From Bacteroidales bacterium (GTDB taxonomy: Bacteria; Bacteroidota; Bacteroidia; Bacteroidales; JAGONC01), in the NCBI GenBank assembly GCA_028716265.1, contig JAQUQD010000021.1, forward strand, positions 1 to 41,279: DNA of 41,279 nt. Direction: 5' to 3'. Every line of letters begins with the position of its first letter. Within the stretch, counting starts at the first letter, position 1. Both the position numbers and the translations under genes were made by a program. This document shows positions 4,527 to 41,279 of the stretch, in pieces. The notes under the pieces are model-generated. The model was not told where the DNA came from and did no database searches. It saw only the letters and a program-made list of their open reading frames with translations.

Positions 4527-4553
4527 AAACAATGAAGTGTTCAGCAACGGATG

Positions 4554-4561
4554 CAAAATTA
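4554..4561 (-). promoter_or_regulatory. Bacteroidota -7 promoter box for the TonB receptor operon
   Basis: TAATTTTG on the minus strand fits TAnnTTTG and lies 28 bases before the ATG at 4526. No convincing -33 TTG was seen. A related TAATTTTA on the plus strand (about 4602-4609) may serve the divergent nuclease gene, so the 105-base gap probably carries back-to-back promoters. Confidence 0.55.
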
Positions 4562-4631
4562 AGATTATTCTTTCATGTTTTAGCCGGGGTCGTGGTAAAG
4601 TGTTAATTTTACGGCTGAAGAAAGGGTCACC

Positions 4632-11603: not shown

Positions 11604-11619
11604 TCAAAATTTCAATATA

Positions 11620-12480
11620 ATGAAAGGAATCATCCTGGCAGGAGGATCGGGTACCCGGCTGTATCCCATCACCCTGGCCATCAGCAAGCAACTGATGCCC
11701 ATCTACGACAAACCAATGGTTTATTATCCGTTGTCCGTTCTGATGATGGCAGGCATCCGCGACATTCTGGTCATCTCCACGCCACATGACCTGCCTCATT
11801 TCCAAAAGCTTCTGGGGGACGGACATTCCCTGGGTCTGTCCATTCACTACGCCGAGCAGGCCATCCCCAACGGGATCGCACAGGCATTCGTCATCGGTGA
11901 GGAGTTCATAGGTCCAGACAAAGTGGCCCTGATCCTGGGCGATAACATCTTTTACGGTACCGGGATGCAGAATCTTCTACAGCAGAACAATGATCCCGAT
12001 GGCGGTGTCGTTTTCGCATACCATGTTTCCGATCCGCAACGCTATGGCGTCGTGGAGTTTGACGACGACCTGAACGCTACCTCCATCGAAGAAAAGCCGG
12101 CCCGGCCCAAATCCAACTATGCCGTTCCGGGTCTGTATTTTTACGACAACACGGTCACCGATGTGGTAAAGCGTATGAAGCCCAGCGCACGGGGTGAGTA
12201 TGAAATTACGGATGTCAACAAATATTACCTCTCACAAAAGAAGCTGAAGGTGGGTATTTTAAGCAGGGGAACGGCCTGGCTTGACACAGGTACATTCGTT
12301 TCCCTTCTTCAGGCCTCCCAGTTCGTACAGGTGATCGAGGAGCGCCAGGGACTTAAGATCGGCTGTATAGAAGAGATCGCCTATCGCATGGGTTTCATTG
12401 GCAAAGAACAACTGTACCGGATTGCACAACCTTTGATCAACAGCGGATACGGGAAATACCTTATCGACCTCATCAAATAA
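11620..12480 (+). CDS. rfbA: Glucose-1-phosphate thymidylyltransferase
   Basis: This enzyme makes dTDP-glucose from glucose 1-phosphate and dTTP, the first step of the dTDP-rhamnose and deoxysugar route for surface glycans. The ATG at 11620 gives 286 residues starting [16 protein letters not shown], the standard family start; an upstream in-frame ATG at 11578 would add 14 residues that cross the promoter box. Further signatures are [36 protein letters not shown] and AWLDTGTF. Length is normal. The other dTDP-rhamnose genes (rfbB, C, D) are not adjacent. The gene is followed after 10 bases by a polyprenyl diphosphate synthase, a lipid-carrier gene, which suggests joint expression for envelope synthesis. 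Confidence 0.96.
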
Positions 12481-21600: not shown

Positions 21601-24600
21601 CCGACGGCATGGTCAGCACCACGGTTTTGTCCTGCAGCGGCCGAACAGATCCCGGTTGGAGGAACATCCGGGTAGGTACCCAGCTGATAATGTGCCAGCC
21701 AGAAATCACCCGAAGTGATTTGAATATTCAGTGCAGTCAGGTCAACTGTCAGCCAGAAAGCGCTGGTGGCTGTCTGATCGCTTTGTCCAAGCTGTGTGCC
21801 CGGTATTCCGCCTGCGTCCGCATAAATTCTTACCCTGAATGGGGTGTAAACATTCCCGGCAGGCCAGCTTCCATCCCATGTATACATCTGGAAGGTAGTG
21901 ATCGTACAGGGGTATCCCAATGGTGTAAAACGTACTGCAGTTTCTCCACCCGGATCGTACCATGCCATGGCATTGTCGCCTGTACCCGTGTCGTAAATGA
22001 TCCAGTAGGGTTCGCCGGCGCCTGCCGCGCTCCACGTCAGATGGGCCGTATGGCCTACATCTTCGCCTTCAAGTTCAGTTGGAGGAGGCAGATACTGTGA
22101 TGTCCATGCATAGTAGATCTTTTCTGAGTGGCCGCTGGCATAATAGCAGGCCACCGCACTGGTGTAGGTCTGACCCCAGTTGATCAGCTCAGGGTTGTAC
22201 TGCCAGGATGTCTCGGTGGTGAAACCAGCGATGAAGTCATCCAGGTACACGGTAAATCCGATGGGGTTCTTCTGAATGAAGCTCCAAATCTTTACATTAT
22301 CCACGGCCCATTCGTTGATGTTGTAGCAGTCAGCACCGTAGGCACGGAACCTGACCTGGAAATTTTGATTGGCATAGTCTTGCACATAGTCAACATTGTG
22401 CGTCCAGGAGATGCTTCCCGTGTTGGACCAATCGCGGGTCGGAATCCAGTTTGTACCGTCAAATACTTCAAAGGCCAGATGCTCAAGTCCATCGCTTGCA
22501 AAATCAGACAGGTAAATGTCATATTCCACTACCAGCTGATACGTGTAAGCCTTGCAGTCGAAGACCGGACTGGTGAGCGTATGGCTGTAGTTGGTTACTG
22601 ATGGAGACCAGTAGAAATACGCTCCGGGGGCCGGATTACCGTAGGATGTGGTAAAGCCCCAGTTGGAAGAGGACGGATTCTCTGTCCAGGTATTGTACTG
22701 TGCCTGATCCTGGAACGGAATATAATAAATATCCTTCATTCCGCCCGGTTTCTCCCATGTAGCCAGCAACGTGAGAGGATCCACAAACAGGTTCTGTGCA
22801 GGATCCGTTATCTCCTGAAGCTCAACGTCAAAAACAACGTCTCCGTTGAGGAAATAGTTATTGTTGGTATAGGTCACATAGCCGGGGAAGGCGACCGCCA
22901 GGTCGTACGTTCCGTTCCATGCGCCCTTGAATTGCGCCACTCCCGTCGCATCGCAGATGGCGCTGTATGCATGTTCGGTCAGTCCATCATGGTTGATGAA
23001 GGTCACATATGCGCCTTCCGGGGACTGGTTGGAAGAGAGAGTAACATTGACGGTAACGGTGGATGTCCAGTTTTTCCCCAGCATGTTGGAGAGGGTGGGG
23101 GCAGAATTACCGGCATCATACGCTACGACGACTGCCCAGCGGTATCCGCCGTTAGGCAGGGAGTTCCATGCGTTGTCGTAATAGACGTTGTTGGTTACAA
23201 AACCTGCCAGCAGTGTCCAGTTGGCGGGGATTTCCTCATCGCCTTCGTTCACGCGGTAGACCATGTAGTGGGAAAGACCTCTGGGAGTTTCTCCGCCTTC
23301 GATCGGCCGGTAAAGACCTTCGCCTTCATAACCCGTTTTCATCTTGGGTTCTGAAAGTCCGAGGATCTCGCCTCTTGGTCCCCTGGTGCCCTGGATGAGC
23401 TTGGAGTCGTCGGCACGATCCAGAAGTAATCCGCCCGGGCTCGAAACGACCGCACGGATCATGAAATCGTTGTAAGCGGACACATACCATGGGCCTGTGC
23501 CGTATTTCTGGTAGCTGCGGAACACCGGGTTGGATTCATCCACTGCGATCGGGGCGCAGTTGGGATAATCGCCACCCTGCTGCATGGCCACGTAGAAGCT
23601 GCCGCTGTTGATGACCACAGGTCTGTCGCTGACATCCCACGCGACCCAGCCCACGGCATTAGGCACAACTTCCACCTCAGCCAGTTTGGTTCCCGGGAAG
23701 CCATCTTCTCCGTCATCATCGAAGATGGCAATGTTGAACGGCTGGAGAATATCGCCGCCCGGAGGATAATATCCATTTCCGATGTTAACCGATCCATAGT
23801 GGATCGTGCAGGGATATCCGCCCGGTGTGAATTTGAGGGCGTTGTAACTGCCTTCCAGTTGCCATGCGACCATATTTTCCAGCACACCGTCGTCATAAAT
23901 GATCTCATATAAACCGTCGGGTATTCCCCAGGAGATTTTTACCACATTCACGTCGGCCTGGACGATCTCGGCCAGCACGCTGCTGACGGGAACCTTGTCT
24001 TCGCCAAGTGCAAAGTCCGATGTTGCAGTTCCATCCGCCGGGATCTGAACCTGATTCACTCCCGTTTGGTAACCGGCCTTTGTAGCGGTAACGGTAGTAA
24101 AGTTCGTTCCCATGGTATACATTGTCATTGTATAGAAACCGGCATTGTCCGTAAACGTTGAAGCTTCACCGAATGCACTGAAAGCATTCATCACCACTCC
24201 GGGGATTGGATCGCCGGAGATCGCATCGGTCACCGTACCCTGAACGTTCCCTTGCGTAGGTGGGAAGTAATACACCCTTAATCGCGGAGGATAACTGGTA
24301 TAGGTTCCTGTACCGAAGGGTGGTGGAACAGGTGAGTCGAAATACCGGTAGCAACCCTGGTTTGATATGCCCTGAAAAGCCTGCCAGGGGCCATAGCGGT
24401 TTCCTGAATAAGCCCCGTCCATGTTTTTCCAGATGATAGCAAGATGCCCCGAACCGGTGTACATGAAATTCCCAATCAGGGGGAACTCATTCCATCCTGC
24501 CACCATCAAACAGCTGCCCGTCCAAACCTTTGTATACCCGTCAGCAATCAAATCCGCATCCGTGTCTGGGATTGTGTTCGTGGTCCAGGAAGTGAAATCA

Positions 24601-24890
24601 ACCTCCTTCATCCAGCACGAAAGGTTCAGGATCGGATTAGCATTGGTGTTAACGCTGTTCGCATTGTAACCTATTTTCGTGATCAACTTGGGATTCGTAT
24701 CACCGAAATTTGTGTTTGAATAAATGGTTTTGGACCAACCATAATTATAAAAACCATAAAACGGGATATAAGAAATAGTTGTGTAATAGGTCCCAATGTC
24801 TGTCACCAACTGGGCACTAGTTTGGAATCCGAAAAATGATAATAACATCGTTATCATCATTAATCTCACAAAAAGAGTAACCTTTTTCAT
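15645..24890 (-). CDS. Giant modular T9SS-secreted surface protein (3081 aa)
   Basis: Signal peptide at 1-27 (to TSAQ). Modules seen, approximate residues: N-terminal beta domain 30-210; carboxypeptidase-regulatory-like beta sandwich 213-300; a repeated module opening IIYDDG or a variant at 330-480, 973-1115 and 1348-1500, with a divergent copy at 2315-2473; choice-of-anchor-J-like domains at 730-875 and 2657-2807; a MAM-like jelly roll at 1745-1900; a LamG-like segment at 1990-2180; more regulatory-like sandwiches at 1230-1310, 2568-2650 and 2812-2890; an Ig-like domain at 2892-2992; and a type A T9SS sorting domain at 3001-3081 (VYPNPATNYVKL, ending KSVVITR). Linkers resemble fibronectin type III. 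The sorting domain predicts export through T9SS and attachment to or release from the surface. No catalytic domain was recognised, so an adhesin or matrix role is likely. It has its own promoter and terminator. Confidence 0.93.
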   Translation of the reverse strand: MKKVTLFVRLMMITMLLSFFGFQTSAQLVTDIGTYYTTISYIPFYGFYNYGWSKTIYSNTNFGDTNPKLITKIGYNANSVNTNANPILNLSCWMKEVDFTSWTTNTIPDTDADLIADGYTKVWTGSCLMVAGWNEFPLIGNFMYTGSGHLAIIWKNMDGAYSGNRYGPWQAFQGISNQGCYRYFDSPVPPPFGTGTYTSYPPRLRVYYFPPTQGNVQGTVTDAISGDPIPGVVMNAFSAFGEASTFTDNAGFYTMTMYTMGTNFTTVTATKAGYQTGVNQVQIPADGTATSDFALGEDKVPVSSVLAEIVQADVNVVKISWGIPDGLYEIIYDDGVLENMVAWQLEGSYNALKFTPGGYPCTIHYGSVNIGNGYYPPGGDILQPFNIAIFDDDGEDGFPGTKLAEVEVVPNAVGWVAWDVSDRPVVINSGSFYVAMQQGGDYPNCAPIAVDESNPVFRSYQKYGTGPWYVSAYNDFMIRAVVSSPGGLLLDRADDSKLIQGTRGPRGEILGLSEPKMKTGYEGEGLYRPIEGGETPRGLSHYMVYRVNEGDEEIPANWTLLAGFVTNNVYYDNAWNSLPNGGYRWAVVVAYDAGNSAPTLSNMLGKNWTSTVTVNVTLSSNQSPEGAYVTFINHDGLTEHAYSAICDATGVAQFKGAWNGTYDLAVAFPGYVTYTNNNYFLNGDVVFDVELQEITDPAQNLFVDPLTLLATWEKPGGMKDIYYIPFQDQAQYNTWTENPSSSNWGFTTSYGNPAPGAYFYWSPSVTNYSHTLTSPVFDCKAYTYQLVVEYDIYLSDFASDGLEHLAFEVFDGTNWIPTRDWSNTGSISWTHNVDYVQDYANQNFQVRFRAYGADCYNINEWAVDNVKIWSFIQKNPIGFTVYLDDFIAGFTTETSWQYNPELINWGQTYTSAVACYYASGHSEKIYYAWTSQYLPPPTELEGEDVGHTAHLTWSAAGAGEPYWIIYDTGTGDNAMAWYDPGGETAVRFTPLGYPCTITTFQMYTWDGSWPAGNVYTPFRVRIYADAGGIPGTQLGQSDQTATSAFWLTVDLTALNIQITSGDFWLAHYQLGTYPDVPPTGICSAAAGQNRGADHAVGSGWTSPDYDLYMIRAGVKGPMGDSYLLDNGVPDPTPAIPDLRNSLSVNKANTEIPTERVTPKYEKMREAEYGDLVGFNVFRDGSYIGQTDAETLEYFDTGLPAGYYDYQVSALFGDPTPGESMKSNTATVYINGEGTIFGTVSELGSQFIPIQGALVTATGSWGTWTAYTANNGSYILEAVTEDTYTMTCEAEGFETQVLEGVVVGDGQNVEVNFELYEFPYPVIGVNATRNQEHTEVFVNWYEYSDFYQIIYDDNEADNVTAWQKGGNMHAVRFTPMAYPAELFAVQINIFDGTWPTGANTQPFEVAIFDDNGPDGMPGTEFGRVTYDPFAYGWVEVDLSTLGVSIPSGDFYIAMVQGGNYPDCVPIAIDEDAMVYRSYSRDVSLNQPWVVSEFADFMMRAFVYDESKGRNIIGYTQDNPTVTFEAGSGNEMSLNPSNMVAGTYKVGEGTFKPVKENIGTREIEDYTVYYLREGDEAVPEAWTEKATVTETSYLDTDWNGYEKGMYRYAVVANYSFNTSEPSFSNVLPKGYEHTVTLNIRTNDGNPAEGAQVLLTSSDGDPNKTYSAISPANGVVVFYKQIWDGTYDLSVTKDYYNPYSLMNISILNDLSLNVNLMEIFLPPACFHVDNMTGVATWCPPVLEYETVFEEGFEGGSIPAGWTQEYLTETQTPWIVRTGSSMNIPDFAHEGTYNAFFIGSTASTRLVTPPIDLSDAAVPKLTFYHTQPKGAGQDELKVYYRTAPGAIWHPLTSYIDDIRYWRGESIALPNATSNYQIGFAGDCGQASGYGICLDEIKILGGMQGAREISDSRVLEGYNVYLDGVKLAYTTELTYTYTDLVLGQYYVGGVQAVYSGGESIIVEKGFVYYICDVFPQPTDFAGSVNGMSVILTWTSPIEFPGIYEDFLSPVLPDNWLFSSDEWTAPGDSYLYMTASAAGNWEGAYYDEQYEDFTFEVEVTKTGGSDSESIGMTVRATSWMDQCTGYLCNITQGGSFSVFKMTGGGGSEVIQGWTSSGAINTGFGSPNVVTIVGVGSNIQFYCNSQLLVSFNDATYPSGYLTISPYTGTSGTIVNYDYYMIMSAAANGPIAGDVKPVSNMKGTPYYCEGSVSNPPVPAVGLIGDKRDEFELVGFNVYRDGVIINPEPLSVYTEQYIDVVSPGGIYYYNLTCVYDFGHSCLLDPPYEAIVGGDLMPPINLEAFLLENDDVLLTWTAPGAPTGQWITWDDGVFFGRVGLNGAATWYNAHMFTPADLISFDSWYLTKVRFVPSDAEGICDFTLKVWTGENAANEVVSQPLGALIQQEYNTVMLNNPILIDASQKLWIGFELVQAAAGYPAGRDEFTNYDGKGNLLSFDAIEWEAMSGYGIAGDWNIQGWVASEVANYAPTAPLVKNVIHNSGDLAFGTVKTDKIATAPGETRGLVGYNLWRNGANFDFVPTPDTSYTDAGLNPGTYEYYVSAVYDEGESFAEGPAYATVTGRGTLKGYVYDAQSGSPVIMGTVSLPGGYSTQTGYDGKYIIQNLPAGTWDVTFEAEDYNTKVVYGVEIKHQQIKVLDIGMYDFSVATLPFFEPWDSESFDTQGWTFDPSPSANWIMVDSDGNPAPTAVFYWSPQVEDYSMALVSPFIDATSAKNNVTLKFDLFLSGYSYLGDNLMTIEAWNGTSWLQVAEFDDSNDIEWTTFKYDISAAALGKLTQVRFVGNGADSYNINWWFVDNIKVYESVTYTMWGTVTELAGGAPIEGAMIEVEGYQPVYTNADGDYYIDVEPGTYDVTCSADCFNPIVVYNQEISGDIEKNFALNQPILVADPMQIPVDLAPYGVTTEYVTISNDGNGVLHWMAAITPEITWASLGVTSGTLAPGQFVEVPVFIAPEGLFEPGDVENATIKFTEELGCSTADVAITMTIVVGIDDLTSGMIQVYPNPATNYVKLAVTDDITEIRVMNYMGQVMDAMNVTSTKLIQLNTTSYATGTYMIEFMKANGEKVTKSVVITR

Positions 24891-31617: not shown

Positions 31618-31746
31618 TCAACAGTCAGCAGTCAACAGTCAACAGTCAACAGTCAGCAGGCAACAGGCAATAACTGGCAGTTGGGAGTTGCAGTTGACGG
31701 TTAGCGGAGAAAGATATGCGAAAATCGACAATCGACAATCGGCAAT
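31617..31746 (+). repeat. CAGTCAA-type 7-nt repeat upstream of rsmA
   Basis: Seven or so units alternating CAACAGT and CAGCAGT occupy 31619-31672. A looser complementary arm (CAGTTGGGAGTTGCAGTTGAC) runs at 31677-31699, and a second run of CGACAAT-type 7-nt units lies at 31727-31746. The rsmA frame happens to stay open through it, giving a false glutamine-serine-rich N-terminus. The same unit recurs at 40168-40223. Confidence 0.85.
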
Positions 31747-32523: not shown

Positions 32524-32540
32524 CCGGCAAATTGAAACCG

Positions 32541-34547
32541 ATGAAGAAGCCAGGACATCAGCAGTCGGTAAGACCTGGACCGGAATTGAAGCCCTTACTG
32601 AATTCCAGCATTAAAAACCAGTGGATCTATGGACTGGTCATCGTTCTTTTCACACTGGTACTCTATGGTAATACGGTCAGGAACAAGTACGCCGTGGATG
32701 ACCACCTGGTGACCTACCCCAACGAACAGATCGCGCAAGGGATCAAAGCGATTCCCGAGATCCTGACCACACGTTACGCCAAGGAAGAACAGCTGACGTA
32801 CGGATATCGCCCCCTGGTGAAGATCACCTACGCCATTGAGTATGAGATCTGGGGCTTCAAGCCAGGACGGTCCCACGCCATCAATGCACTGATCTATGCG
32901 TTCACCGGGCTGCTCCTTTTCCGGCTGCTGAGAAAGCTTTTAAAAGACTACCATCCGTTGTTTGCGATCCTCGTCACCCTGCTATTCATCGCACATCCCG
33001 TTCACACCGAGGTGGTTGCCAGTCTGAAGAACAGGGATGAGCTGCTGGGATTCTTTTTCAATGTGGTGACAATGATCCTGCTCTTTCGTTTTGTGGAGAC
33101 CCGAAAGATCCGTTTTATCCTTTTGTGCGCGCTGACGTTCGTTCTTGTCCTGTTATCCAAGCCTACGGCTGCGATATTCTTTATTATCTATCCACTGGCC
33201 CTTTATTTTTTCACCGATGTAAAAACCAGACCACTGGTGTATTCTGCTATCGCCTTTTTCGGGCTGGTCCTGCTCTTCCTGGTATTTACCAGGTTCGTCC
33301 TTCCGGAGAACGTCAGGCCGGTGCAGTATTATGAAAATCCGCTCTTTTTTGAGAAGAACCTCTGGCTGAGGGCAGGGACGGGATTTTATATTTTGCTGTA
33401 TTATCTGCGTCTGCTTCTTTTCCCTCATCCGCTCCGGTTCTACTATGGATACGATATGATCCCTGTGGTGAACCTGGCCAACGGGTGGGTGATCCTGAGC
33501 ATTCTGATCCATGCCGCACTGCTGGCATACGCCATCTATAAATTCAGGGAAAAGCACATTCTTTCGTTCGCCATTTTCTATTACCTGCTGATGATGGCCA
33601 TGTATTCCAATTTTGTTTTACCGTCCCCCGGGATCATTGCTGAAAGGTACCTTTATGTTTCTTCCCTGGCTTTCAGTCTGGTGGCGGTCTATTTCATTTT
33701 CAAGCTCTACCATACTTCCCCCTTCAGATTCAATCCTTCAAAAGGTTCACTTGCAGGCATTCTTATCACCTGCATGATCCTTCTGGTTCCCTATTCGGTC
33801 TATACCTTCAACCGGAATAAGGATTGGAAGAACTATATGACCCTCTACGAGAGAGACCTTCCCCGGCTGGAGCGATCAGTGAAAGCTAATGTATTGTATG
33901 CCAGTCTTTTAACCAGCGAAGTTTCCGAAACGATGGATATGGAAAAGCAGACAAGATGGATTGGTCTCATCAAAAAGCACTACGACCAGGCGCTGAAGAT
34001 CTACCCTGATAATTTTGAAGTGCTGAACAATTACGGTTCATTTTATGCTTATACGCTTGGAGATCTGCCCACCGCCATTCCTTACTTTGATAAAGCCATT
34101 CAGCTGGAACCCCGACGTCCGGAGCCCTATTATAATCTTGGATACACTTACAAAATTCTTGGGGATACGGCCCGTGCGATCAGCAACTACCGGATGGCCA
34201 ACCAGCTAATGCCCTCCAGTGTCGCCATCAAATCAGACCTGGCGAACCTTTACTATGCTTCTGATTCAGTGATCCAGGCCATTCAGATGAACAGGGAAGT
34301 GATTGAAATTGATTCCGGCACAGCCATCCCTTATATTAACCTTGGCAATTACATGGCCGGTCTTGGCGATACAGCCCGTGCCATACCCTACTGGGAAAAA
34401 GCCGTTTCCATCCAGCCTGAGTACCGTCTCTGCATGAAGATCAGCTGGTATTATCTTCAGCAGATGGACTCTGCCAGGACCTGGCAGTATTATAACATGG
34501 CACAGAAGGTCAAACCCAGGATGACACGGGGAGAAGAAAAACGATAA
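32541..34547 (+). CDS. Membrane GT-C-like glycosyltransferase with C-terminal TPRs
   Basis: A 668-residue integral membrane protein. The frame opens at TTG 32532, but the ATG at 32541 follows a promoter box and is preferred. After a short basic N-terminus come roughly ten hydrophobic segments up to about residue 440. The first extracytoplasmic loop contains YAVDDHLVTYPNEQ, matching the acidic catalytic loop of GT-C polyprenyl-phosphate-sugar enzymes, and then YGYRPLVKITYAIEY and HAINALIYA. Residues about 480-640 are TPR repeats (ALKIYPDNFEVLNNYGSFYA, AIQLEPRRPEPYYNLGYTY). This layout resembles eukaryotic TMTC O-mannosyltransferases and related bacterial proteins. It probably transfers a lipid-linked sugar to exported proteins; donor and acceptor are unknown. 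An acyl-AMP ligase follows after six bases. Confidence 0.8.
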   Translation: MKKPGHQQSVRPGPELKPLLNSSIKNQWIYGLVIVLFTLVLYGNTVRNKYAVDDHLVTYPNEQIAQGIKAIPEILTTRYAKEEQLTYGYRPLVKITYAIEYEIWGFKPGRSHAINALIYAFTGLLLFRLLRKLLKDYHPLFAILVTLLFIAHPVHTEVVASLKNRDELLGFFFNVVTMILLFRFVETRKIRFILLCALTFVLVLLSKPTAAIFFIIYPLALYFFTDVKTRPLVYSAIAFFGLVLLFLVFTRFVLPENVRPVQYYENPLFFEKNLWLRAGTGFYILLYYLRLLLFPHPLRFYYGYDMIPVVNLANGWVILSILIHAALLAYAIYKFREKHILSFAIFYYLLMMAMYSNFVLPSPGIIAERYLYVSSLAFSLVAVYFIFKLYHTSPFRFNPSKGSLAGILITCMILLVPYSVYTFNRNKDWKNYMTLYERDLPRLERSVKANVLYASLLTSEVSETMDMEKQTRWIGLIKKHYDQALKIYPDNFEVLNNYGSFYAYTLGDLPTAIPYFDKAIQLEPRRPEPYYNLGYTYKILGDTARAISNYRMANQLMPSSVAIKSDLANLYYASDSVIQAIQMNREVIEIDSGTAIPYINLGNYMAGLGDTARAIPYWEKAVSIQPEYRLCMKISWYYLQQMDSARTWQYYNMAQKVKPRMTRGEEKR

Positions 34548-34553
34548 GGGAAG

Positions 34554-36257
34554 ATGAAAGCTGGCATTTATAATAGAAGAACGGTTCCTGACCTGCTATT
34601 ATCCGTTGTAGAGTCATTTCCGGATAAAGGAATTGGTTTTGTTCAATCCGAAGGTAATATGAAGTTCCTGACCTATAAGGAACTTTTATCAGAGGCAAAG
34701 GAAATTTTAGGGGGTCTGCAATCCAGAGGTTTGACACAGAAAGACAAGGTGATGATCGTCATGTCAAGGAATGAGGATATTGTACCTGTGCTCTGGGCTT
34801 GTTTTTTGGGAGGAATGGTACCCACCATCCTTCAACCTCCTGTATCGTTTACGGAATTCAATCAGCCTGCCCGGAAAATTGAGAATGTTTACCGTATACT
34901 CCAACATCCCAGGATAATCTTATCGGCGGATTTGATGAACAGTTTCAAATCGGAAGTGATATCCACACAGGATATTCTTGATGCAGGAAATCTTAAGAAT
35001 CAAAACAGGGAGGCATTTTTGACTAACATCCTGGAAACTGATATTGCTTTCATTCAATTCTCATCAGGAAGTACAGGAGATCCAAAAGGGATCGTATTGA
35101 CTCATAAAAACATACTCACCAATATTGCAGCTATTTGCGTTGGGCTGGATGTATATGATAACGATGTGTATTCAAGCTGGATGCCTATATACCATGACAT
35201 GGGTTTATTTGGGTACCATTTCTGCCCCCTGTTCGCACAGAATAATCATTATCTCATTGATCCGGTAAATTTTGTAAAAAAGCCATCGTTGTGGCTTGAC
35301 GTCATGGAAGAAGTGAAATGCACCATCACCGGATGTCCGAATTTTGGGCAGGCATTGCTTTTAAGATATTTAAAAAACCGAGAAAGCAAAAAATGGGACC
35401 TTTCTTCGTTAAAAGCAATAGTTAACGGAGCAGAACCAATATCTCCCAGGATCATGTATGATTTCCTGAATAGTCTATCGGATCACAAATTGAAAAAAGA
35501 ATCAATGATACCTGCATATGGTATGGCTGAATCCACGCTGGCAATTACACTTTCCGAATTATTTAAGGTTCCGGTAACCACTCCATTCAACAGAACGATA
35601 CTACAAAAACAAGGGAAAGCTGTCGTGGAGAAAAATGTTGTTTCAGAGGTGATAGAGTTAGTGAGTGTCGGAAAGCCGCTCAATGATGTCGAGATCAGGG
35701 TCGTAAGTGAAAAGGGGGATCCTTTGGCAGACAATCTTGAAGGACAGATCCAGATAAAAGGAGCAGGAATTACATCCGGATATTATAATAATCCTGAAGA
35801 AACACATCGTTCATTCAACAATACATGGTTCAATACAGGTGATAAAGGATTTATTTTCAATGGAAATCTGTATGTCACAGGCAGGATAAAAGATATCATC
35901 TTTGTCCGTGGTCAGAATCTTTACGCCCACGATCTGGAAAGTCTGGCCTGTAAATACTCAGGAATCACGTATGGTAAAATAATAATGGGTGGATTGTTTG
36001 ACTCCAGGAAAGGGTATGACCAGATCCTTGTATTCCTTGTAGGATCACCAAACCAGGAGACCTGCCAGACTTTTACCCAGCTGCGTAATTTTTTTCGGGA
36101 CACTTACGGATTAACCATTGATATTTTCATTCCCATCCGCTCAAATCAGGTCCCCAAGACAAGCAGTGGTAAGATCCAGCGTTATAAGCTGATTTCCAGT
36201 TATCAGAACGGGGAGTTTGACAATGTGATCGCCGATGTGGCGAAGCTGATGAAGTAA
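34554..36257 (+). CDS. Fatty-acyl-AMP ligase (stand-alone)
   Basis: A 567-residue adenylate-forming enzyme that activates a carboxylic acid as acyl-AMP for transfer to an acyl carrier protein. Visible motifs: A3 loop FSSGSTGDPKGIVLTH (about 167-182), SWMPIYHDMGLFGY (FAAL-type, about 207), NGAEPISPRIM, AYGMAESTLA, TGDKGFI, GRIKDIIFVRGQNLYAHDLE and A10 SSGKIQRYK with the catalytic Lys (about 541). YHDMGL and YAHDLE favour the FAAL branch over acyl-CoA synthetases. The gene looks more AT-rich than its neighbours, suggesting a separate origin. It starts six bases after the GT-C gene and ends before a repeat-rich gap leading to a free acyl carrier protein. Confidence 0.88.
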   Translation: MKAGIYNRRTVPDLLLSVVESFPDKGIGFVQSEGNMKFLTYKELLSEAKEILGGLQSRGLTQKDKVMIVMSRNEDIVPVLWACFLGGMVPTILQPPVSFTEFNQPARKIENVYRILQHPRIILSADLMNSFKSEVISTQDILDAGNLKNQNREAFLTNILETDIAFIQFSSGSTGDPKGIVLTHKNILTNIAAICVGLDVYDNDVYSSWMPIYHDMGLFGYHFCPLFAQNNHYLIDPVNFVKKPSLWLDVMEEVKCTITGCPNFGQALLLRYLKNRESKKWDLSSLKAIVNGAEPISPRIMYDFLNSLSDHKLKKESMIPAYGMAESTLAITLSELFKVPVTTPFNRTILQKQGKAVVEKNVVSEVIELVSVGKPLNDVEIRVVSEKGDPLADNLEGQIQIKGAGITSGYYNNPEETHRSFNNTWFNTGDKGFIFNGNLYVTGRIKDIIFVRGQNLYAHDLESLACKYSGITYGKIIMGGLFDSRKGYDQILVFLVGSPNQETCQTFTQLRNFFRDTYGLTIDIFIPIRSNQVPKTSSGKIQRYKLISSYQNGEFDNVIADVAKLMK

Positions 36258-36470
36258 TAGTACCCACCCCCTCGATCCCCCTCTATGCCCGCATAGGGGT
36301 GGTTAAAAGAAACAGAAGTTGCTGAGGAAGAGTCGGATGTAGACAATTGTAACTTTTAGTACCCACCCCCTCGTTCCCCCTCCCTTCGAAAAGGGAGGAG
36401 GAAGAACACTCTCCCCTTCCCCCTCCCTGCGGGCAGGGAGGGGGAAGGGGGGTGGGTAAAAAATGAATCC
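36258..36470. repeat. C/G-rich hairpin repeats between FAAL and ACP genes
   Basis: Two near-identical 26-base direct repeats containing TAGTACCCACCCCCTCG start at 36258 and 36357. Hairpins follow each: CTCTATGC/GCATAG-type around 36281, CTCCCTT/AAGGGAG around 36380-36397, and a perfect 18-bp stem at 36413-36430 with 36433-36450. The outer arms ACCCACCCC and GGGGTGGGT also pair. It may terminate the upstream ligase transcript; there is no open frame in the gap. Confidence 0.85.
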
Positions 36471-36522
36471 ACAGGGCAGGAGAATGAGTAAAAGAAAATC
36501 ATTCTCACAACCGGAAAAATCC

Positions 36523-36530
36523 TACCTTTG
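36523..36530 (+). promoter_or_regulatory. -7 promoter box for the acyl carrier protein
   Basis: TACCTTTG followed by CATCC is a classic Bacteroidota -7 region, 20 bases before the ACP ATG. Confidence 0.6.
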
Positions 36531-36550
36531 CATCCCTAAATCATCATTCC

Positions 36551-36787
36551 ATGACCGTTAATGAATTTATCGAGAAGATCGAAGCTGAATTCGAGGACCT
36601 GGAACCCGGTAAATTAAAGCCTGCCAGCAATTTCCGCGAAGTATTCGAGTGGAACTCCATCAACGCCCTTATCCTGATCGCCCTGGTCAAGACGGAATAC
36701 GACGTGGTGATCAAAGCGGAAGATATAGCCAGATCTAAGACTGTTAATGATCTCTATACGATCATCGAGCAAAGGGTTACTTCATAA
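36551..36787 (+). CDS. Acyl carrier protein
   Basis: A 78-residue acidic four-helix carrier. The phosphopantetheine attachment Ser is in FEWNSINALILIALV (about residue 37), where the usual DSL is replaced by NSI, as seen in dedicated, non-housekeeping carriers. Helix III and the C-terminus (VIKAEDIARSKTVNDLYTII) are typical. It is flanked by a stand-alone acyl-AMP ligase upstream and a ligase-ACP fusion downstream on the other strand, so it most likely carries the acyl chain activated by one of these and used by the nearby FabH-like ketosynthase. It is unlikely to be the main fatty-acid-synthesis ACP. Confidence 0.9.
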   Translation: MTVNEFIEKIEAEFEDLEPGKLKPASNFREVFEWNSINALILIALVKTEYDVVIKAEDIARSKTVNDLYTIIEQRVTS

Positions 36788-36912
36788 ATCCCAACTTCCA
36801 ACTTCCAAATTCCAAACAAATTACAAAACACAAATTCCAATGCTTTTATCGGAAGAGGCTTGGAATTTGAAATTTGGGATTTGTTTGGGGTTTTGATTTT
36901 GGAAGTTGGAAG
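36788..36912. repeat. Long CTTCCAA-type 7-nt hairpin between convergent genes
   Basis: The 125-base gap between the ACP stop and the ligase-ACP stop is one hairpin. The left arm begins with CTTCCAA CTTCCAA ATTCCAA units. The right arm ends with the complement (TTGGAAG TTGGAAG). The arms are about 50 bases each, with the outer 16 bases perfectly matched and a loop of about 20 bases at 36840-36860. Its position suggests a two-way terminator. Confidence 0.85.
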
Positions 36913-38949
36913 TTATTGCCCCAATCTGCTGGCTCTCTCAGCCAACTCACCAATGGTTATTTTCTCGAAAAAAAGGTACGGTGGGAAATTGATCCCGTAT
37001 CTCTGAAGAAAGGCATTCTGAAGCTGTACAGCTTTCATTGAGTTCAGGCCATAAGCCGTGATGGGTCTGGAGGAATCGATTAGTTCGATGGGCACCTTCA
37101 GCTGGCTGTGGATCCAGGCAAGTAGCCACGCCTGCAGGGAGACCAGATCCGACGACGACGCAACAGCTTCCCTTTCCCGTGTTGTTTCTTTGAGAACAGA
37201 TTCACCCACCACGTCCAGTTCATTTCGGAGAAAAGCTGCTTTGCATGCCCTGCGCTGGATCTTGCCGCTGGAGGTCTTCAGGATGCTGGCGGTGCGAAGC
37301 AGCTGAACGGCGTACACCTCCTGCTCCAGTTCCTCCCCCACCTGCTGACGGATAGCATCACATACCGCCGCGACATCCAGGTCGCGGATGGCGGTCCGTT
37401 CCACCTCCGCTACGATGACCAGTCTCTCTTCCCCGTCCAGGTCGACAGAGAAAGCAGCGCTCGCATTGGGCCTTAGTGCCGGATGACTTTTCTCGGCAAG
37501 GAATTCGATGTCCTGAGGATAATAATTCCTGCCCTTTAAAATGATCAGATCCTTCAGCCTTCCTGTAACATATAACTCCCCTTCGTAAAAGAAACCCAGG
37601 TCACCTGTCCGGAGAAAAGGCCCTTCCCTGGTATCGCGTGTGTAAGCATGAAAGGTTTCTTTGGTCTCCCTGGATTTATTCCAGTATCCCTTCGTGATGA
37701 TTGACCCTGAAACCCATATTTCACCAACTTCTGAAGATTTACTGTGTGTCAGCGTTTCCGGATCGACAATGATGATATGGGTGTCGATCCAGGGTTTTCC
37801 GACAGATACCTGGTAACTGGAGCCCGGAGCATCCTCCCGTGTGATTTCAATCCTTCCCTTTTCAAGAGCCTGCTTATCGACACACAAATACCGCGGTTTG
37901 TCCGTTATGTTACCTCCTGAAACGATCAATGTAGCTTCTGCCAGTCCATATCCCGGATAGAAGTTCTCCGGCTGAAATCCGTAGGGCTCAAATCGTTCGA
38001 TGAACTGCTCCATGGTGGCCTTTCGTACCGGCTCAGCCGCATTTAAGATCGCCTTGACCGTACTCAGGTCAAGATTCATGCAATCTTCTTCCGATATTTT
38101 CGATATACAGAGATCAAAAGCAAAATTAGGAGCACTTCCCATCACTCCATGGTAATCAGAAAAAGCCCTCAGCCAGCGGATGGGTTTTTGAATGAACGAA
38201 ACCGGCGACATCAGGATACCGGTACATCCGCTGTAAACAGGCTGAATGATGCCAATGACCAGCCCCATGTCATGAAAAACGGGTAACCAGTGGACAGCAT
38301 TTGTTTCAGCGGTGAATTCGAAACATTGCCTCAGGAATTCAAGGTTCCGCATGAAATTCCCATGGCTGACCATGACACCTTTCGGACTGGCTGTTGAACC
38401 CGAAGTGTATTGCAGTAAAGCCAGATCATCCGGCGCTATCGTATAACTGAAATCTTCGCTGACGGAAGATTCCCTGTCAACAGATATCCAGAGCAGGGAC
38501 CTGAGTTCCTCCACATCGCGAAAGTTCTTCTCAAAGGATTCCCGGATATCGCTTATGGTGATGCATAGCTTCGGATCGCAATCATTGACGATTGAAATGA
38601 TCCTGCTGAAAGAACGGTTTTTACGTGGCGGATAGGCCGGGACAGCATAAATGGCAGCATAAAAACAGCCGAACAGAGTTTTTACAAACTCCAGTCCCGG
38701 AGGGAAAAGCAACAGGGCCCGCTCACCCGGTGAAATCCCGCGGTTCCTGATGGTGTGCGCTATCCTCCAGGCCTGTTCGTACAATTGCCTGTATGTGATC
38801 TTTTCCTCCTCCGTTTCTCCATCTTTTAAGAAAATAAAAGCAACCTTATCCGGGGTTCGCTCCGCCCTGAATTTGAGAATATCGCAAATGGTATATAGGT
38901 AGGTATCTTCCTCTGTGATCGTTCCATGTAAAAAATTCTCCAGTCCCAT
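36913..38949 (-). CDS. Fatty-acyl-AMP ligase fused to an acyl carrier domain
   Basis: A 678-residue two-domain protein. Residues 1 to about 575 form an FAAL: AYPPRKNRSFSRI (about 110-122), A3 loop YTSGSTASPKGVMVSHG (about 180), HWLPVFHDMGLVIGIIQP (the FAAL hallmark), NAAEPVRKATM, GYGLAEATLIVSGG, TGDLGFF, GRLKDLIILKGRNYYPQDIE and A10 TSSGKIQRRA with the catalytic Lys (about 560). Residues about 595-678 form an ACP domain with the pantetheine Ser in AYGLNSMKAVQLQ (about 635). The enzyme can therefore activate an acid and load it on its own carrier. It is divergent from the KS III gene, sharing a promoter region, and convergent with the free ACP gene. Architecture matches starter modules of lipopeptide/polyketide systems, but no NRPS or PKS module is in view. 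Confidence 0.92.
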   Translation of the reverse strand: MGLENFLHGTITEEDTYLYTICDILKFRAERTPDKVAFIFLKDGETEEEKITYRQLYEQAWRIAHTIRNRGISPGERALLLFPPGLEFVKTLFGCFYAAIYAVPAYPPRKNRSFSRIISIVNDCDPKLCITISDIRESFEKNFRDVEELRSLLWISVDRESSVSEDFSYTIAPDDLALLQYTSGSTASPKGVMVSHGNFMRNLEFLRQCFEFTAETNAVHWLPVFHDMGLVIGIIQPVYSGCTGILMSPVSFIQKPIRWLRAFSDYHGVMGSAPNFAFDLCISKISEEDCMNLDLSTVKAILNAAEPVRKATMEQFIERFEPYGFQPENFYPGYGLAEATLIVSGGNITDKPRYLCVDKQALEKGRIEITREDAPGSSYQVSVGKPWIDTHIIIVDPETLTHSKSSEVGEIWVSGSIITKGYWNKSRETKETFHAYTRDTREGPFLRTGDLGFFYEGELYVTGRLKDLIILKGRNYYPQDIEFLAEKSHPALRPNASAAFSVDLDGEERLVIVAEVERTAIRDLDVAAVCDAIRQQVGEELEQEVYAVQLLRTASILKTSSGKIQRRACKAAFLRNELDVVGESVLKETTREREAVASSSDLVSLQAWLLAWIHSQLKVPIELIDSSRPITAYGLNSMKAVQLQNAFLQRYGINFPPYLFFEKITIGELAERASRLGQ

Positions 38950-38975
38950 AGCTATTTCCTTTAATTTGACCGTTG

Positions 38976-38983
38976 CAAAATTA
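38976..38983 (-). promoter_or_regulatory. -7 promoter box for the ligase-ACP fusion
   Basis: TAATTTTG on the minus strand, 26 bases before the ATG at 38949. It is one half of a divergent promoter pair with the box at 39015-39022. Confidence 0.55.
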
Positions 38984-38995
38984 GGAAATCATGAG

Positions 38996-39022
38996 TTGGG
39001 AACGGAAAATGGGTTAAATTTG
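38996..39022 (+). promoter_or_regulatory. Promoter of the FabH-like ketosynthase
   Basis: TTG at 38996-38998, 16 bases, then TAAATTTG at 39015-39022. The 7-nt hairpin repeat begins two bases after the box, so the 5' leader would consist almost wholly of the repeat. Confidence 0.55.
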
Positions 39023-39023
39023 T

Positions 39024-39107
39024 GAGCTGCAAGCTACAAGCTGCAAGCTACAAGCTGCAAGCTTCAAGCTTAAGACTTGAAACTTGTAGCTTGAAACTTG
39101 AAGCTAA
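39024..39107 (+). repeat. AGCTACA-type 7-nt hairpin repeat in the ketosynthase leader
   Basis: The left arm alternates AGCTGCA and AGCTACA (five or six units). The right arm is ACTTGAA/GCTTGAA/CTTGTAG-type complement. The loop has CTTAAGACTTGAA, the same core as the serS-leader element at 28266-28327. The stem is about 30 bp with G-U pairs and mismatches, ending ten bases before the ATG. Confidence 0.85.
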
Positions 39108-39117
39108 AAAGAAACAC

Positions 39118-40227
39118 ATGGCTCTCTTCCGCATCCCCAACATCCGCATCGCCGGCATGGCAGCCGCCGTTCCGGTGAGCGAGGTCTCCAACCTGGATTA
39201 CCGATGGATCTCCGTCAAAGAACGTCAGCAGGTAGTTAAGGCCATCGGGGTGGAGAAGCGGCGTATCGCAGAAAAAGGCCAGACTACGGCTGACCTGTGT
39301 TTTGCAGCGGCCGACAGGCTCCTGGGCGATCTTCAGTGGAACCGGAATGAAATTCAGGCCATCATTTTCGTTTCTCAGTCGATGGATTACATCATTCCTG
39401 CCACTGCACCCATCTTACAGAACCGTTTATCATTACCCAAAACATGCCTGGCATTCGATATCAACCTGGGCTGCTCAGGATATATCTATGGTCTGTCGGT
39501 CATTGGCAGTCTGATGAGCCAGTCACGGATGAAGAAGGCTCTTCTTTTAGCCGGAGATCTTTCCAGTATAACTTCATCATACCGTGATAAAAGCACATAT
39601 CCTCTGTTTGGAGATGCTGGCACGGTAACAGCTCTGGAATTGACCGAAACGGCAGAACCGATGATCTTTAACCTCCAGACGGATGGGGCAGGCTATCGTG
39701 CCATCATGATCCAGGATGGGGGGGTTCGCAACTGGGTTAGCAAAAAATCATTTAATTACCGTAAATACGGAGAAGGCATCTACCGGAATAATCTTCAGAT
39801 TTCCCTGGATGGGATAGAAGTATTTAATTTTTCCCTCCGGGAGGTAGTACCCAACATCAAAGCCACTCTGGAGTATGCCGGGAAAACATTGAACGATTTC
39901 GATTATCTGGTCTTTCACCAGGCGAACCGGCTGATCAATGAAACGATCCGTAAAATGCTAAAAGCCGAGAAAGAGAAGGTCCCCTACTCAATCCATAAAT
40001 ACGGGAACACCAGCAGCGCCTCCGTACCCCTGACCATTGTTTCCGAATTGCAGGAAAACATCCGGAATGAGCATGTCAAATTCCTGCTTTCAGCATTCGG
40101 CATCGGATTATCCTGGGGCACGGTGCTGCTTGAGACGAATAGGGTGGTGTGTCCGGGAGTGATTCAAGTCGGCAGTCAGCAGTCAGCAGTCAGCAGTCAA
40201 CAGTCAACAGTCAGCAGTCAACAATAG
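39118..40227 (+). CDS. FabH-like 3-oxoacyl-ACP synthase III
   Basis: A 369-residue condensing enzyme of the KS III family, which joins an acyl starter to malonyl-ACP with loss of CO2. The catalytic triad is visible: Cys in INLGCSGYIYG (about 119), His in LVFHQANR (about 266) and Asn in YGNTSSASV (about 296). The start at 39118 (MALFRIPNIRIAG) is chosen because the upstream 32 in-frame codons are repeat DNA. The last 18 or so residues (from VGSQQS) are also repeat-encoded and replace the normal C-terminus. The real family end is LSWGTVLLE. It is divergent from the ligase-ACP fusion and followed by an SDR, so it is probably a dedicated rather than a housekeeping FabH. Confidence 0.9.
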   Translation: MALFRIPNIRIAGMAAAVPVSEVSNLDYRWISVKERQQVVKAIGVEKRRIAEKGQTTADLCFAAADRLLGDLQWNRNEIQAIIFVSQSMDYIIPATAPILQNRLSLPKTCLAFDINLGCSGYIYGLSVIGSLMSQSRMKKALLLAGDLSSITSSYRDKSTYPLFGDAGTVTALELTETAEPMIFNLQTDGAGYRAIMIQDGGVRNWVSKKSFNYRKYGEGIYRNNLQISLDGIEVFNFSLREVVPNIKATLEYAGKTLNDFDYLVFHQANRLINETIRKMLKAEKEKVPYSIHKYGNTSSASVPLTIVSELQENIRNEHVKFLLSAFGIGLSWGTVLLETNRVVCPGVIQVGSQQSAVSSQQSTVSSQQ

Positions 40228-40268
40228 AACAATTTGACAGTTTAACAATTTAACAATTTGGCAATTGA
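40168..40268 (+). repeat. CAGTCAA-type 7-nt repeat changing to AACAATTT 8-nt repeat
   Basis: Eight units of CAGCAGT/CAACAGT run from 40168 to 40223 and include the ketosynthase stop codon. Without a break the DNA continues as five 8-nt units AACAATTT GACAGTTT AACAATTT AACAATTT GGCAATTG to about 40266. The element ends seven bases before the SDR start. The first half is the same family as 31617-31746. Confidence 0.85.
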
Positions 40269-40275
40269 CTAACGT

Positions 40276-41010
40276 ATGAACGCCTTCGACCTCACCGGAA
40301 AACGAATCCTTGTCACCGGCGCCTCCTCCGGTCTGGGACGGCAATGTGCGATCACTGCCAGCCATTACGGGGCAACGCTTGTCATTACCGGTCGCCATCA
40401 GGGAAGATTGATGGAAACCTTTAATGAGCTGTCAGGCACAGGCCACCAGTGGTTGCTGGCCGATCTCACAAAGGATTCAGAAATTTTACGCCTGGTCGGT
40501 GATCTTCAACCGGTCAACGGAGTAGTCTATAGCGTTGGGATATCTGATCTCTCACCCGCCCGGTTCATTACCGGGGCAGATATAAATAAAACCTTCACTG
40601 TCAGCTTTAATACTTCCGTTCTGCTCACCAGCAGCCTGCTGACGAAGAAAAAACTTGTGCAGAAAGCCTGTTCGCTCGTTTTTATCTCTACGATATCCAC
40701 AAGATACCCCTTTGTAGGCGGAGCCATGTATATCAGTGCCAAAGCAGCGCTGGAAGCCTATGCACGCGTACTGGCTCTTGAGCTGGCATCCAAGGGGATA
40801 CGGTCCAACAGTATCTGCCCGGCCTTTGTAAAAACACCCATGCTCGACAGCACCGCCGAAAATTATTCCCAGGAAGCTGTCCGGAAAATAGAAGAAAGAC
40901 AACCCCTGGGACTGGGCGAACCTGAAGACGTGGCCAATGCGGTGGTGTTCTTTCTTTCAGACGCTTCACGGTGGATTACCGCTACCAACCTCATCCTGGG
41001 CGGCGGATAA
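40276..41010 (+). CDS. SDR-family oxidoreductase (FabG-like)
   Basis: A 244-residue classical short-chain dehydrogenase/reductase. The cofactor motif TGASSGLGRQ is at about 13-22, and TGRHQGRL, with a basic residue after the second strand, suggests NADPH. The catalytic residues are Ser in FISTIS (about 138) and the Tyr and Lys of YISAK (about 151-155). The C-terminal FLSDASRWITATNLILGGG is typical of 3-oxoacyl-ACP reductases. It follows the KS III gene with only a repeat between. The inferred role is reduction of the 3-oxoacyl chain made by the ketosynthase to a 3-hydroxyacyl group. A sugar-modifying role cannot be excluded. Confidence 0.88.
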   Translation: MNAFDLTGKRILVTGASSGLGRQCAITASHYGATLVITGRHQGRLMETFNELSGTGHQWLLADLTKDSEILRLVGDLQPVNGVVYSVGISDLSPARFITGADINKTFTVSFNTSVLLTSSLLTKKKLVQKACSLVFISTISTRYPFVGGAMYISAKAALEAYARVLALELASKGIRSNSICPAFVKTPMLDSTAENYSQEAVRKIEERQPLGLGEPEDVANAVVFFLSDASRWITATNLILGGG

Positions 41011-41033
41011 GGATATCTGATGAATGATATTTA

Positions 41034-41064
41034 ATCTTTGATCTTTGATTTTTGATTTTTGAAA
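41034..41064 (+). repeat. ATTTTTG-type 7-nt tandem repeat upstream of GT2
   Basis: Four exact-register units ATCTTTG ATCTTTG ATTTTTG ATTTTTG, ending eight bases before the glycosyltransferase ATG. It occupies most of the short gap after the SDR stop. Confidence 0.75.
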
Positions 41065-41071
41065 TTAAAAA

Positions 41072-41279
41072 ATGGACTCCCCACTTTATTCAGTGATCAT
41101 CCCTGTCTTCAACGGCGAAGATACCCTTCGTGAACTGGCCGAAAGGCTGTTGAAATTTTTTTGGGATCTCGGCAAATCGTGTGCGTTGATCTTCATCGAC
41201 GACGGCTCGCAGGATAACAGCTGGAGGGTGCTGACGGAAATAAAAAAAAGCTTCCCCGACGTGGTGACCGTCATCCGGC
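41072..41279 (+). CDS. Family 2 glycosyltransferase (N-terminal part)
   Basis: Sixty-nine codons run from an ATG at 41072 to the right edge. The opening YSVIIPVFNGEDTLRELAERL followed by LIFIDDGSQDNSW is the GT-A nucleotide-sugar binding start of family 2 glycosyltransferases. The second Asp of the DDGS motif contacts the nucleotide. This is a dolichol-phosphate-mannose-synthase or polysaccharide-type family; the acceptor cannot be inferred from the fragment. It lies 61 bases after the SDR stop on the same strand, which links the acyl-activation genes to glycan synthesis. Confidence 0.9.
   Translation, partial: MDSPLYSVIIPVFNGEDTLRELAERLLKFFWDLGKSCALIFIDDGSQDNSWRVLTEIKKSFPDVVTVIR

Follow-up and report, generated by a model that had tools for sequence, protein, structure and literature searches.

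Background

What do the genes at the right-hand end of this Bacteroidales contig make together, and does the group end where the contig ends? The contig (JAQUQD010000021.1 of assembly GCA_028716265.1), which was analyzed over its full length of 41,279 nucleotides and is called the window below, carries at positions 34554-41279 a free acyl carrier protein (ACP), a ketosynthase III (KSIII), a short-chain dehydrogenase/reductase (SDR), the start of a family 2 glycosyltransferase (GT2), and two fatty acyl-AMP ligases (FAALs), one stand-alone (FAAL1) and one with a fused carrier (FAAL2). The initial annotation, made from the sequence alone, had proposed that this set activates an acid, elongates and reduces it on a carrier, and passes the hydroxyacyl chain to a glycan or lipid. 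In the open reading frame (ORF) lists and Pfam results, all six genes were present as intact frames.

We read the region as the left half of a cluster for an N-(hydroxyacyl) 4-amino-4,6-dideoxy sugar that is loaded on polyprenyl phosphate, and we put the probability of this reading slightly above one half (about 0.55). The gene families, the conserved gene order and the co-occurrence are observed; every substrate and acceptor is one that we infer. The conservation, the right-hand genes and the hydroxyacyl logic of the earlier interpretation were upheld, and the ligases as its core were not.

Conservation of the operon

The neighborhoods of 80 relatives were mapped with profile hidden Markov models, and the counts given here refer to the 67 with a high-scoring main KSIII; the thresholds of the presence tables were chosen by inspecting score gaps, and, nearly all genomes being draft metagenome assemblies, a gene missing from a neighborhood can mean a contig end. 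The KSIII was accompanied by ACP in 66, SDR in 56, GT2 in 52, a GNAT acyltransferase in 50, a second KSIII (KSb) in 40 and a TMTC-like membrane glycosyltransferase in 26 of these neighborhoods. Rarer partners were a sulfotransferase (22), MBOAT (9) and B12-binding radical SAM enzymes (8), followed by the aminotransferase WecE (6), an SGNH protein (6) and a flippase (5). The commonest order was KSb-ACP-KSIII-SDR-GT2-GNAT, and the same arrangement was found in further named genomes, almost all of Bacteroidota. As an operon, ACP-KSIII-SDR-GT2-GNAT is conserved in about 25 family-level groups (a hand count, made from family codes, of loci with GT2 or GNAT beside KSIII). Because ACP, SDR, GT2 and GNAT stand beside KSIII at such frequencies, the grouping is not due to chance, and the comparison of synteny across Bacteroidota that had been advised for this locus thus found the set conserved together elsewhere.

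The KSIII itself belongs to a clade of its own. In a tree of 46 sequences, three well-supported groups were obtained, namely the window-type KSIII, KSb and housekeeping FabH, with the window-type clade apart from FabH at a support of 100/100. Identity within the aligned subfamily was 42-89%, and identity to FabH of the same genomes was about 30%; the genome of the window has a separate FabH on another contig (C14). A FabH duplicate was therefore ruled out by the tree. The catalytic residues Cys119, His267 and Asn297 were invariant across 14 homologues. The start was assigned to ATG 39118, and an alternative GTG at 39022, from which the frame runs through a dispersed repeat, was not used. Among the partners, Ser36 of ACP was invariant across nine aligned homologues, and TGASxG and Y152/K156 of SDR were kept in an alignment of 41 homologues.

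Co-occurrence with TMTC-like and WecE genes

Genome-level co-occurrence was evaluated in 119 related genomes, mostly one per family, of which 17 had the operon-type KSIII and 102 did not. The TMTC-like gene at E<1e-95 was present in 17/17 operon genomes vs 4/102 others (p=4e-17), and at the looser E<=1e-40 in 17/17 vs 28/102 (p=7e-9). WecE was found in 15/17 vs 19/102 (p=4e-8), and in a larger sample of 395 genomes in 53/67 KSIII genomes vs 86/328 others. The control aminotransferase PseC had no association with the operon in the 119 genomes (3/17 vs 9/102, p=0.23) and was ruled out as its aminotransferase partner. When the window's own family was collapsed, the p values were 5e-14 (TMTC), 4e-6 (WecE) and 0.36 (PseC).

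Both genes are also physically close in relatives or in the window's genome. WecE lies directly after GNAT in one relative (L142), next to ACP where L214 ends, and adjacent to the TMTC gene in L215; the single copy of the TMTC-like gene in the window's genome adjoins FAAL1. The assignment of WecE was above the curated cut-offs of two families (NF008687, 534 bits, cut-off 375; TIGR02379, 487 bits, cut-off 435), and its best relatives in the PDB were 4piw and 6blg. An RmlB gene is present in the window's genome, and an apparent RmlA (glucose-1-phosphate thymidylyltransferase) at window 11617-12480 (+) would, judged from its sequence, provide dTDP-glucose.

Proposed pathway

In the first step, on the dedicated ACP, KSIII would condense a malonyl unit and an acyl primer, and SDR would reduce the product to 3-hydroxyacyl-ACP, probably of short chain length; the primer may come from FAAL1 or FAAL2 here and from a second KSIII elsewhere. 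WecE would convert dTDP-4-keto-6-deoxyglucose to dTDP-Fuc4N, and GNAT would then move the hydroxyacyl group from ACP onto the 4-amino group of the sugar. The ArnC-like GT2 would take the acylated sugar off dTDP and place it on polyprenyl phosphate, and after flipping, the TMTC-like GT-C enzyme would pass the sugar to a protein or lipid acceptor outside the inner membrane. Further tailoring would be due to the sulfotransferases and MBOAT/SGNH, and in relatives to B12-radical-SAM or AspH-type enzymes. GNAT, WecE and the upstream TMTC-like gene are further partners, by which the originally listed set was incomplete; the TMTC-like gene lies just outside the region then considered.

GNAT was PseH-like by NCBIfam, with a score under the family cut-off. 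Its predicted structure (pLDDT 96) resembled PseH (4ri1; Z 18.8, root-mean-square deviation (rmsd) 2.1 over 162) and FdhC (5ktc; Z 18.1, rmsd 2.5 over 172), and FdhC was also its best PDB sequence relative (E=1e-4). The 5ktc structure was solved with 3-[(R)-3-hydroxybutanoylamino]-3,6-dideoxygalactose and CoA. ArnC (9hwj) and GtrB (5ekp) were the nearest solved relatives of GT2, in which the acidic motif D96-D98 was kept in 48 homologues; GT2 scored 146 bits against the curated ArnC family and did not reach the cut-off of 529. By its sequence, GT2 is ArnC-like, not ArnC. Glycosyltransferases of the ArnC, GtrB and PgfS types act on polyprenyl phosphate. The TMTC-like protein matched TMTC_DUF1736 with 30.5 bits (cut-off 27), followed by tetratricopeptide repeats (TPRs), and its D56-D57 and HPxHxE motifs were kept in 21 homologues. 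TMTC N-termini have ArnT as their closest structural homologue (PMC7801869), and GT-C enzymes draw on polyisoprenol-linked donors (PMC6801728).

Several points weigh against this pathway. WecE was inside the fetched neighborhood at only 6 of the 67 loci, and two of the 17 operon genomes are without it. The co-occurrence tests were only partly corrected for phylogeny, with TMTC and WecE still significant after the family of the window was collapsed, and the cut-off of 1e-95 for TMTC was picked with the scores already known. The sequence similarity of GNAT to FdhC is weak, and its fold matches were tied among PseH, SpeG (spermidine), RimJ-type (ribosomal-protein) acetyltransferases and FdhC; a reading of the acceptor from the fold alone was dropped for this reason. 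Seven loci (L081, L082, L086, L099, L100, L101 and L118) have no SDR, GT2 coming directly after KSIII, and their acyl group may be unreduced or the reductase may be encoded elsewhere. FAALs yield acyl-ACP, whereas acyl-CoA is the classical primer of KSIII, and Wzx-type flippases usually handle polyprenyl-PP-oligosaccharides.

Role of the acyl-AMP ligases

The initial annotation had counted acid activation by the ligases among the tasks of the set. FAAL1 and FAAL2 were each found in 8/67 neighborhoods, confined to the close family and some other Bacteroidales, a distribution by which the FAALs as the core were ruled out. Acid activation by the ligases is an accessory or an alternative priming route. 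Both enzymes appear to sit closer to FAAL than to acyl-CoA ligase families. FAAL2 matched the FAAL structures 7r7f (E=1e-158) and 3kxw over its full length, its top NCBIfam and PDB matches all being FAALs, and its position and strand were kept in L042-L046. The top NCBIfam match of FAAL1 was PRK09192 fatty acyl-AMP ligase (353 bits, curated cut-off of 600 not reached), no curated cut-off being reached by this protein, and its PDB relatives were McyG, 6ulx and the FAALs 3pbk and 3kxw. FAAL1 and KSb never occurred together in a survey neighborhood (both, 0; FAAL1 alone, 8; KSb alone, 31), which hints at alternative primer sources, with the limit that few independent clades are involved and all FAAL1 loci are related.

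Alternative explanations

The best surviving alternative, itself improbable, is a discrete secreted or membrane glycolipid, in which FAAL2 and FAAL1 load a fatty acid that is then elongated, reduced, methylated and sulfated, and the sugar genes add the head group only. The FAALs, the FAAL-fused carrier, the sulfotransferases and the up to four B12-radical-SAM genes of relatives would fit a lipid natural-product cluster; however, the FAALs and B12-radical-SAM genes vary, whereas ACP-KSIII-SDR-GT2-GNAT with TMTC is the stable core, and the KSIII clade is that of Flavobacterium loci laid out like O-polysaccharide R-group genes. A cluster with non-ribosomal peptide synthetase or polyketide synthase modules, or a known cluster, was ruled out, since no such modules were found; in agreement with the initial annotation, the ORF lists, which covered the window and the 20 kb that follow it, showed none.

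Also doubtful is an O-acylation like that of the Dlt system, in which DltA-DltC-DltB-DltD carry D-alanine in the same manner. FAAL1 would load an acid on ACP, MBOAT and the SGNH (DUF1574/DltD-like) protein would carry it across the membrane to a hydroxyl of a surface glycan, and KSIII and SDR would only shape the acid. The MBOAT is clear in Pfam (3.5e-21), its neighbor has GxSH and DxDHxN motifs with a weak DUF1574/DltD match, and the genus, L045 and L048 share the order of both genes. Against this stand the 15.8 bits of the DltD match, which are under the Pfam cut-off of 22.7, and the frequencies of MBOAT (9/67), SGNH (6/67) and FAAL1 (8/67), low beside those of GNAT (50/67) and GT2 (52/67).

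We regard as unlikely, too, an ordinary O-antigen or capsule locus whose Wzx/Wzy repeat unit would include the acylated amino sugar as a residue, with GT2 as one glycosyltransferase among others, although a Polysacc_synt/MurJ-like flippase is in the cluster and the O-polysaccharide of F. psychrophilum bears such an acyl-amino sugar (PMC6519341). The flippase is in 5/67 neighborhoods, GT2 resembles the polyprenyl-phosphate users ArnC/GtrB/PgfS, and in the 9 kb to the right of the window we recognized neither a polymerase nor an initiating phosphoglycosyltransferase, nor a set of further glycosyltransferases. Finally, a chance neighborhood of unrelated genes, for which the use of both strands and the intergenic repeats between genes might speak, has next to no probability and is refuted by synteny, the gene order being held across about 25 family-level groups with strong genome-level co-occurrence.

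Possible significance

A wider form of the polyprenyl-phosphate pathway is offered tentatively, as less likely true than false: a Bacteroidota-wide, undescribed extracytoplasmic glycosylation, in which a hydroxyacyl group built on a carrier protein is placed on dTDP-Fuc4N, polyprenyl phosphate serves as the carrier of the acylated sugar, and secreted or periplasmic proteins receive it from a bacterial TMTC enzyme. If so, extracytoplasmic protein glycosylation would be the function of bacterial TMTC-like proteins of this type. If the proposed pathway is right, a surface modification common to many Bacteroidota, uncultured ones included, is predicted, with its whole gene set named from acyl primer through final transferase. 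Bacterial TMTC-like proteins and the operon-associated GNAT family would obtain a testable role, and the acyl-amino-sugar module known from loci for flagellin and O-antigen would have become coupled to an ArnC/ArnT-like route. In a literature coverage that was incomplete, no publication on this gene set was found under TMTC or ArnC-type glycosylation in Bacteroidetes, FdhC, or FAAL clusters in Bacteroidota.

Gene organization and neighboring features

The coordinates are compiled in Table 1. The set is as originally listed, except that the fused ligase, located between ACP and KSIII, is encoded on the opposite strand, and the grouping is genuine but continues past the window edge onto contig C2 (L009). 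The final 309 bases of the window recur, with two mismatches, as the opening 309 bases of contig C2, and since two congeners (L042 and L043) have the whole gene order on single contigs, the junction does not depend on assembly guesswork. The right-hand neighbors, for which inspection had been recommended, are an acyltransferase and sugar or glycan genes, and not unrelated housekeeping genes.

Table 1. Features of the cluster in the window and on contig C2 (L009)
Feature	Location	Strand	Remarks
TMTC-like GT-C membrane glycosyltransferase, predicted final transferase	32532..34547	+	671 aa; Pfam TMTC_DUF1736 and C-terminal TPRs
FAAL1, stand-alone FAAL-type acyl-AMP ligase, accessory	34554..36257	+	567 aa; Pfam AMP-binding 1e-52
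Free ACP	36551..36787	+	78 aa; Pfam PP-binding 24.8 bits, 3e-5; attachment Ser36 in WNSINAL
FAAL2, FAAL-type acyl-AMP ligase with fused carrier, accessory	36913..38949	-	678 aa; Pfam AMP-binding 9e-66 and PP-binding
Carrier domain of FAAL2, C-terminal, residues 608-672	36934..37128	-	Pfam PP-binding 1.3e-10
KSIII, non-FabH clade	39118..40227	+	369 aa; Pfam ACP_syn_III_C 3e-23 and ACP_syn_III
FabG-like SDR, predicted 3-oxoacyl-ACP reductase	40276..41010	+	244 aa; Pfam adh_short_C2 7.7e-39
ArnC/GtrB-like GT2, start only	41072..41279	+	307 aa in full; Pfam Glycos_transf_2 5e-30; remainder on contig C2
GT2, complete	L009:102-1025	+	
GNAT acyltransferase	L009:1027-1716	+	
Sulfotransferase	L009:1703-2776	-	
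Flippase, Polysacc_synt/MurJ-like	L009:2761-4059	-	
MBOAT	L009: about 4150-5601	+	Pfam 3.5e-21
DUF1574/SGNH-like	L009:5608-6579	+	GxSH and DxDHxN motifs; DUF1574/DltD weak in Pfam
Second sulfotransferase	L009:6559-7656	-	
WecE sugar aminotransferase	L009: about 7700-8833	+	NCBIfam, above curated cut-off

AspH hydroxylase-family enzymes and Acyl_transf_3 recur near the operon. Downstream of GNAT, one to three AspH-type genes were observed in L062, L090, L091, L094 and L097, which by analogy with LpxO on lipid A might hydroxylate the acyl chain. In Bacteroidales loci L123, L129, L130, L132, L139 and L140, two to at least four consecutive B12-binding radical SAM genes lie upstream of ACP, with C-methylation of the acyl chain or the sugar as a possible role; the cluster of the window showed none. 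Metagenome-assembled genomes labeled as outside Bacteroidota, namely Treponema (L191), Moraxellaceae (L177), Saccharibacteria (L164) and Chlorobiaceae (L186), also carry the operon or its ACP-KSIII part, through horizontal transfer or binning errors.

A period-7 repeat (CAGTCAG) is located at window 40173-40220, at the 3' end of the KSIII frame, and at 31622-31665, at the 5' end of a KsgA frame, and gives the predicted proteins a low-complexity tail; CAGTCAGCAGTC has 77 copies genome-wide and its reversed control 0. Short repeats of three further kinds (CCAACTTCCAA, CCCCCTCCCT and AGCTGCAAGCT), whose inverted arms reach 64 nt, occupy intergenic positions at 36784-36916, 36262-36457 and 39025-39105, the first between the convergent ACP and FAAL2 genes. 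Elsewhere in the window, positions 15645-24890 (-) encode a secreted-looking repeat protein of 3081 aa that appears to end in a type IX secretion C-terminal domain.

Comparison with known systems

The supply of a hydroxyacyl group for a glycan by ACP, KSIII and SDR, as initially proposed, agrees with two described systems (PMC3927599, PMC6519341). The viosamine island of Pseudomonas syringae (vioA, vioS, vioR, acp, vioB and vioT) yields dTDP-N-(3-hydroxybutanoyl)-2-O-methylviosamine, a dTDP-4-amino-4,6-dideoxy sugar with an amide-linked acyl group, as supported by mutants and mass spectrometry, and the modified viosamine is lost in the mutant of the reductase gene vioR (PMC3927599). Compared at the level of gene content only, the two share a dedicated ACP, a KSIII (VioS), a 3-ketoacyl-ACP reductase (VioR), a dTDP-sugar 4-aminotransferase, an N-acyltransferase and a glycosyltransferase. 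The cluster described here differs in having a GNAT as the N-acyltransferase, a WecE-like aminotransferase, additional FAALs and sulfotransferases, and, in the place of VioT, a predicted polyprenyl-phosphate route via the ArnC-like GT2 and the TMTC-like enzyme.

In F. psychrophilum, wfpC-wfpG comprise the KSIIIs wfpC and wfpE, the ACP wfpD, the reductase wfpF and a PglD-like transferase, predicted to make the 3,5-dihydroxyhexanoyl amide on a 4-amino sugar, the structure of which has been solved (PMC6519341). ACP, KSIII, reductase and acyltransferase are common to both, a likeness judged from the published gene content only; however, that locus has a PglD-type hexapeptide acyltransferase (WfpG), UDP-Qui2NAc4N and a Wzx/Wzy O-antigen, whereas here a GNAT is found and dTDP-Fuc4N is predicted. 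In each of two other Flavobacterium loci with the wfp layout (L187 and L193; ACP-KSIII-Rieske oxygenase-SDR-KSb-PglD beside a DegT aminotransferase), one KSIII groups with that of the window and the other with KSb.

The Arn pathway (ArnB, ArnC and ArnT) transfers aminoarabinose to lipid A. It shares with the present cluster a DegT-family aminotransferase, N-acylation, an ArnC-type GT2 acting onto polyprenyl phosphate and transfer by a GT-C enzyme; the ArnA formyltransferase was not seen here, the acyl group would be a hydroxyacyl, and a TPR-bearing transferase stands in the place of ArnT. TMTC/PMT-type protein O-glycosyltransferases have TMTC_DUF1736 with TPRs, the acidic DD and HPxHxE in common with the TMTC-like protein, but use dolichyl-P-mannose, whereas the donor predicted here is an acylated amino sugar on polyprenyl phosphate. 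FdhC, a sugar N-acyltransferase of the GNAT superfamily (PDB 5kta, 5ktc), has the same fold as the GNAT of the cluster at 20-21% identity; FdhC acts at C3, C4 is predicted here, and our GNAT has a C-terminal extension.

The acyl-amino-sugar module is therefore of a known kind, and its coupling to an ArnC/TMTC-type route, GNAT and FAALs appears to be undescribed. The marks of a hydroxyacyl-amino-sugar module are present, namely an ACP next to KSIII, a non-FabH KSIII with the Cys-His-Asn triad, a ketoreductase and the 4-aminotransferase WecE, and the acyltransferase is a GNAT and not a PglD/hexapeptide N-acyltransferase. The cluster would work as the vio and wfp modules do, yet it represents a variant rather than another locus of their type.

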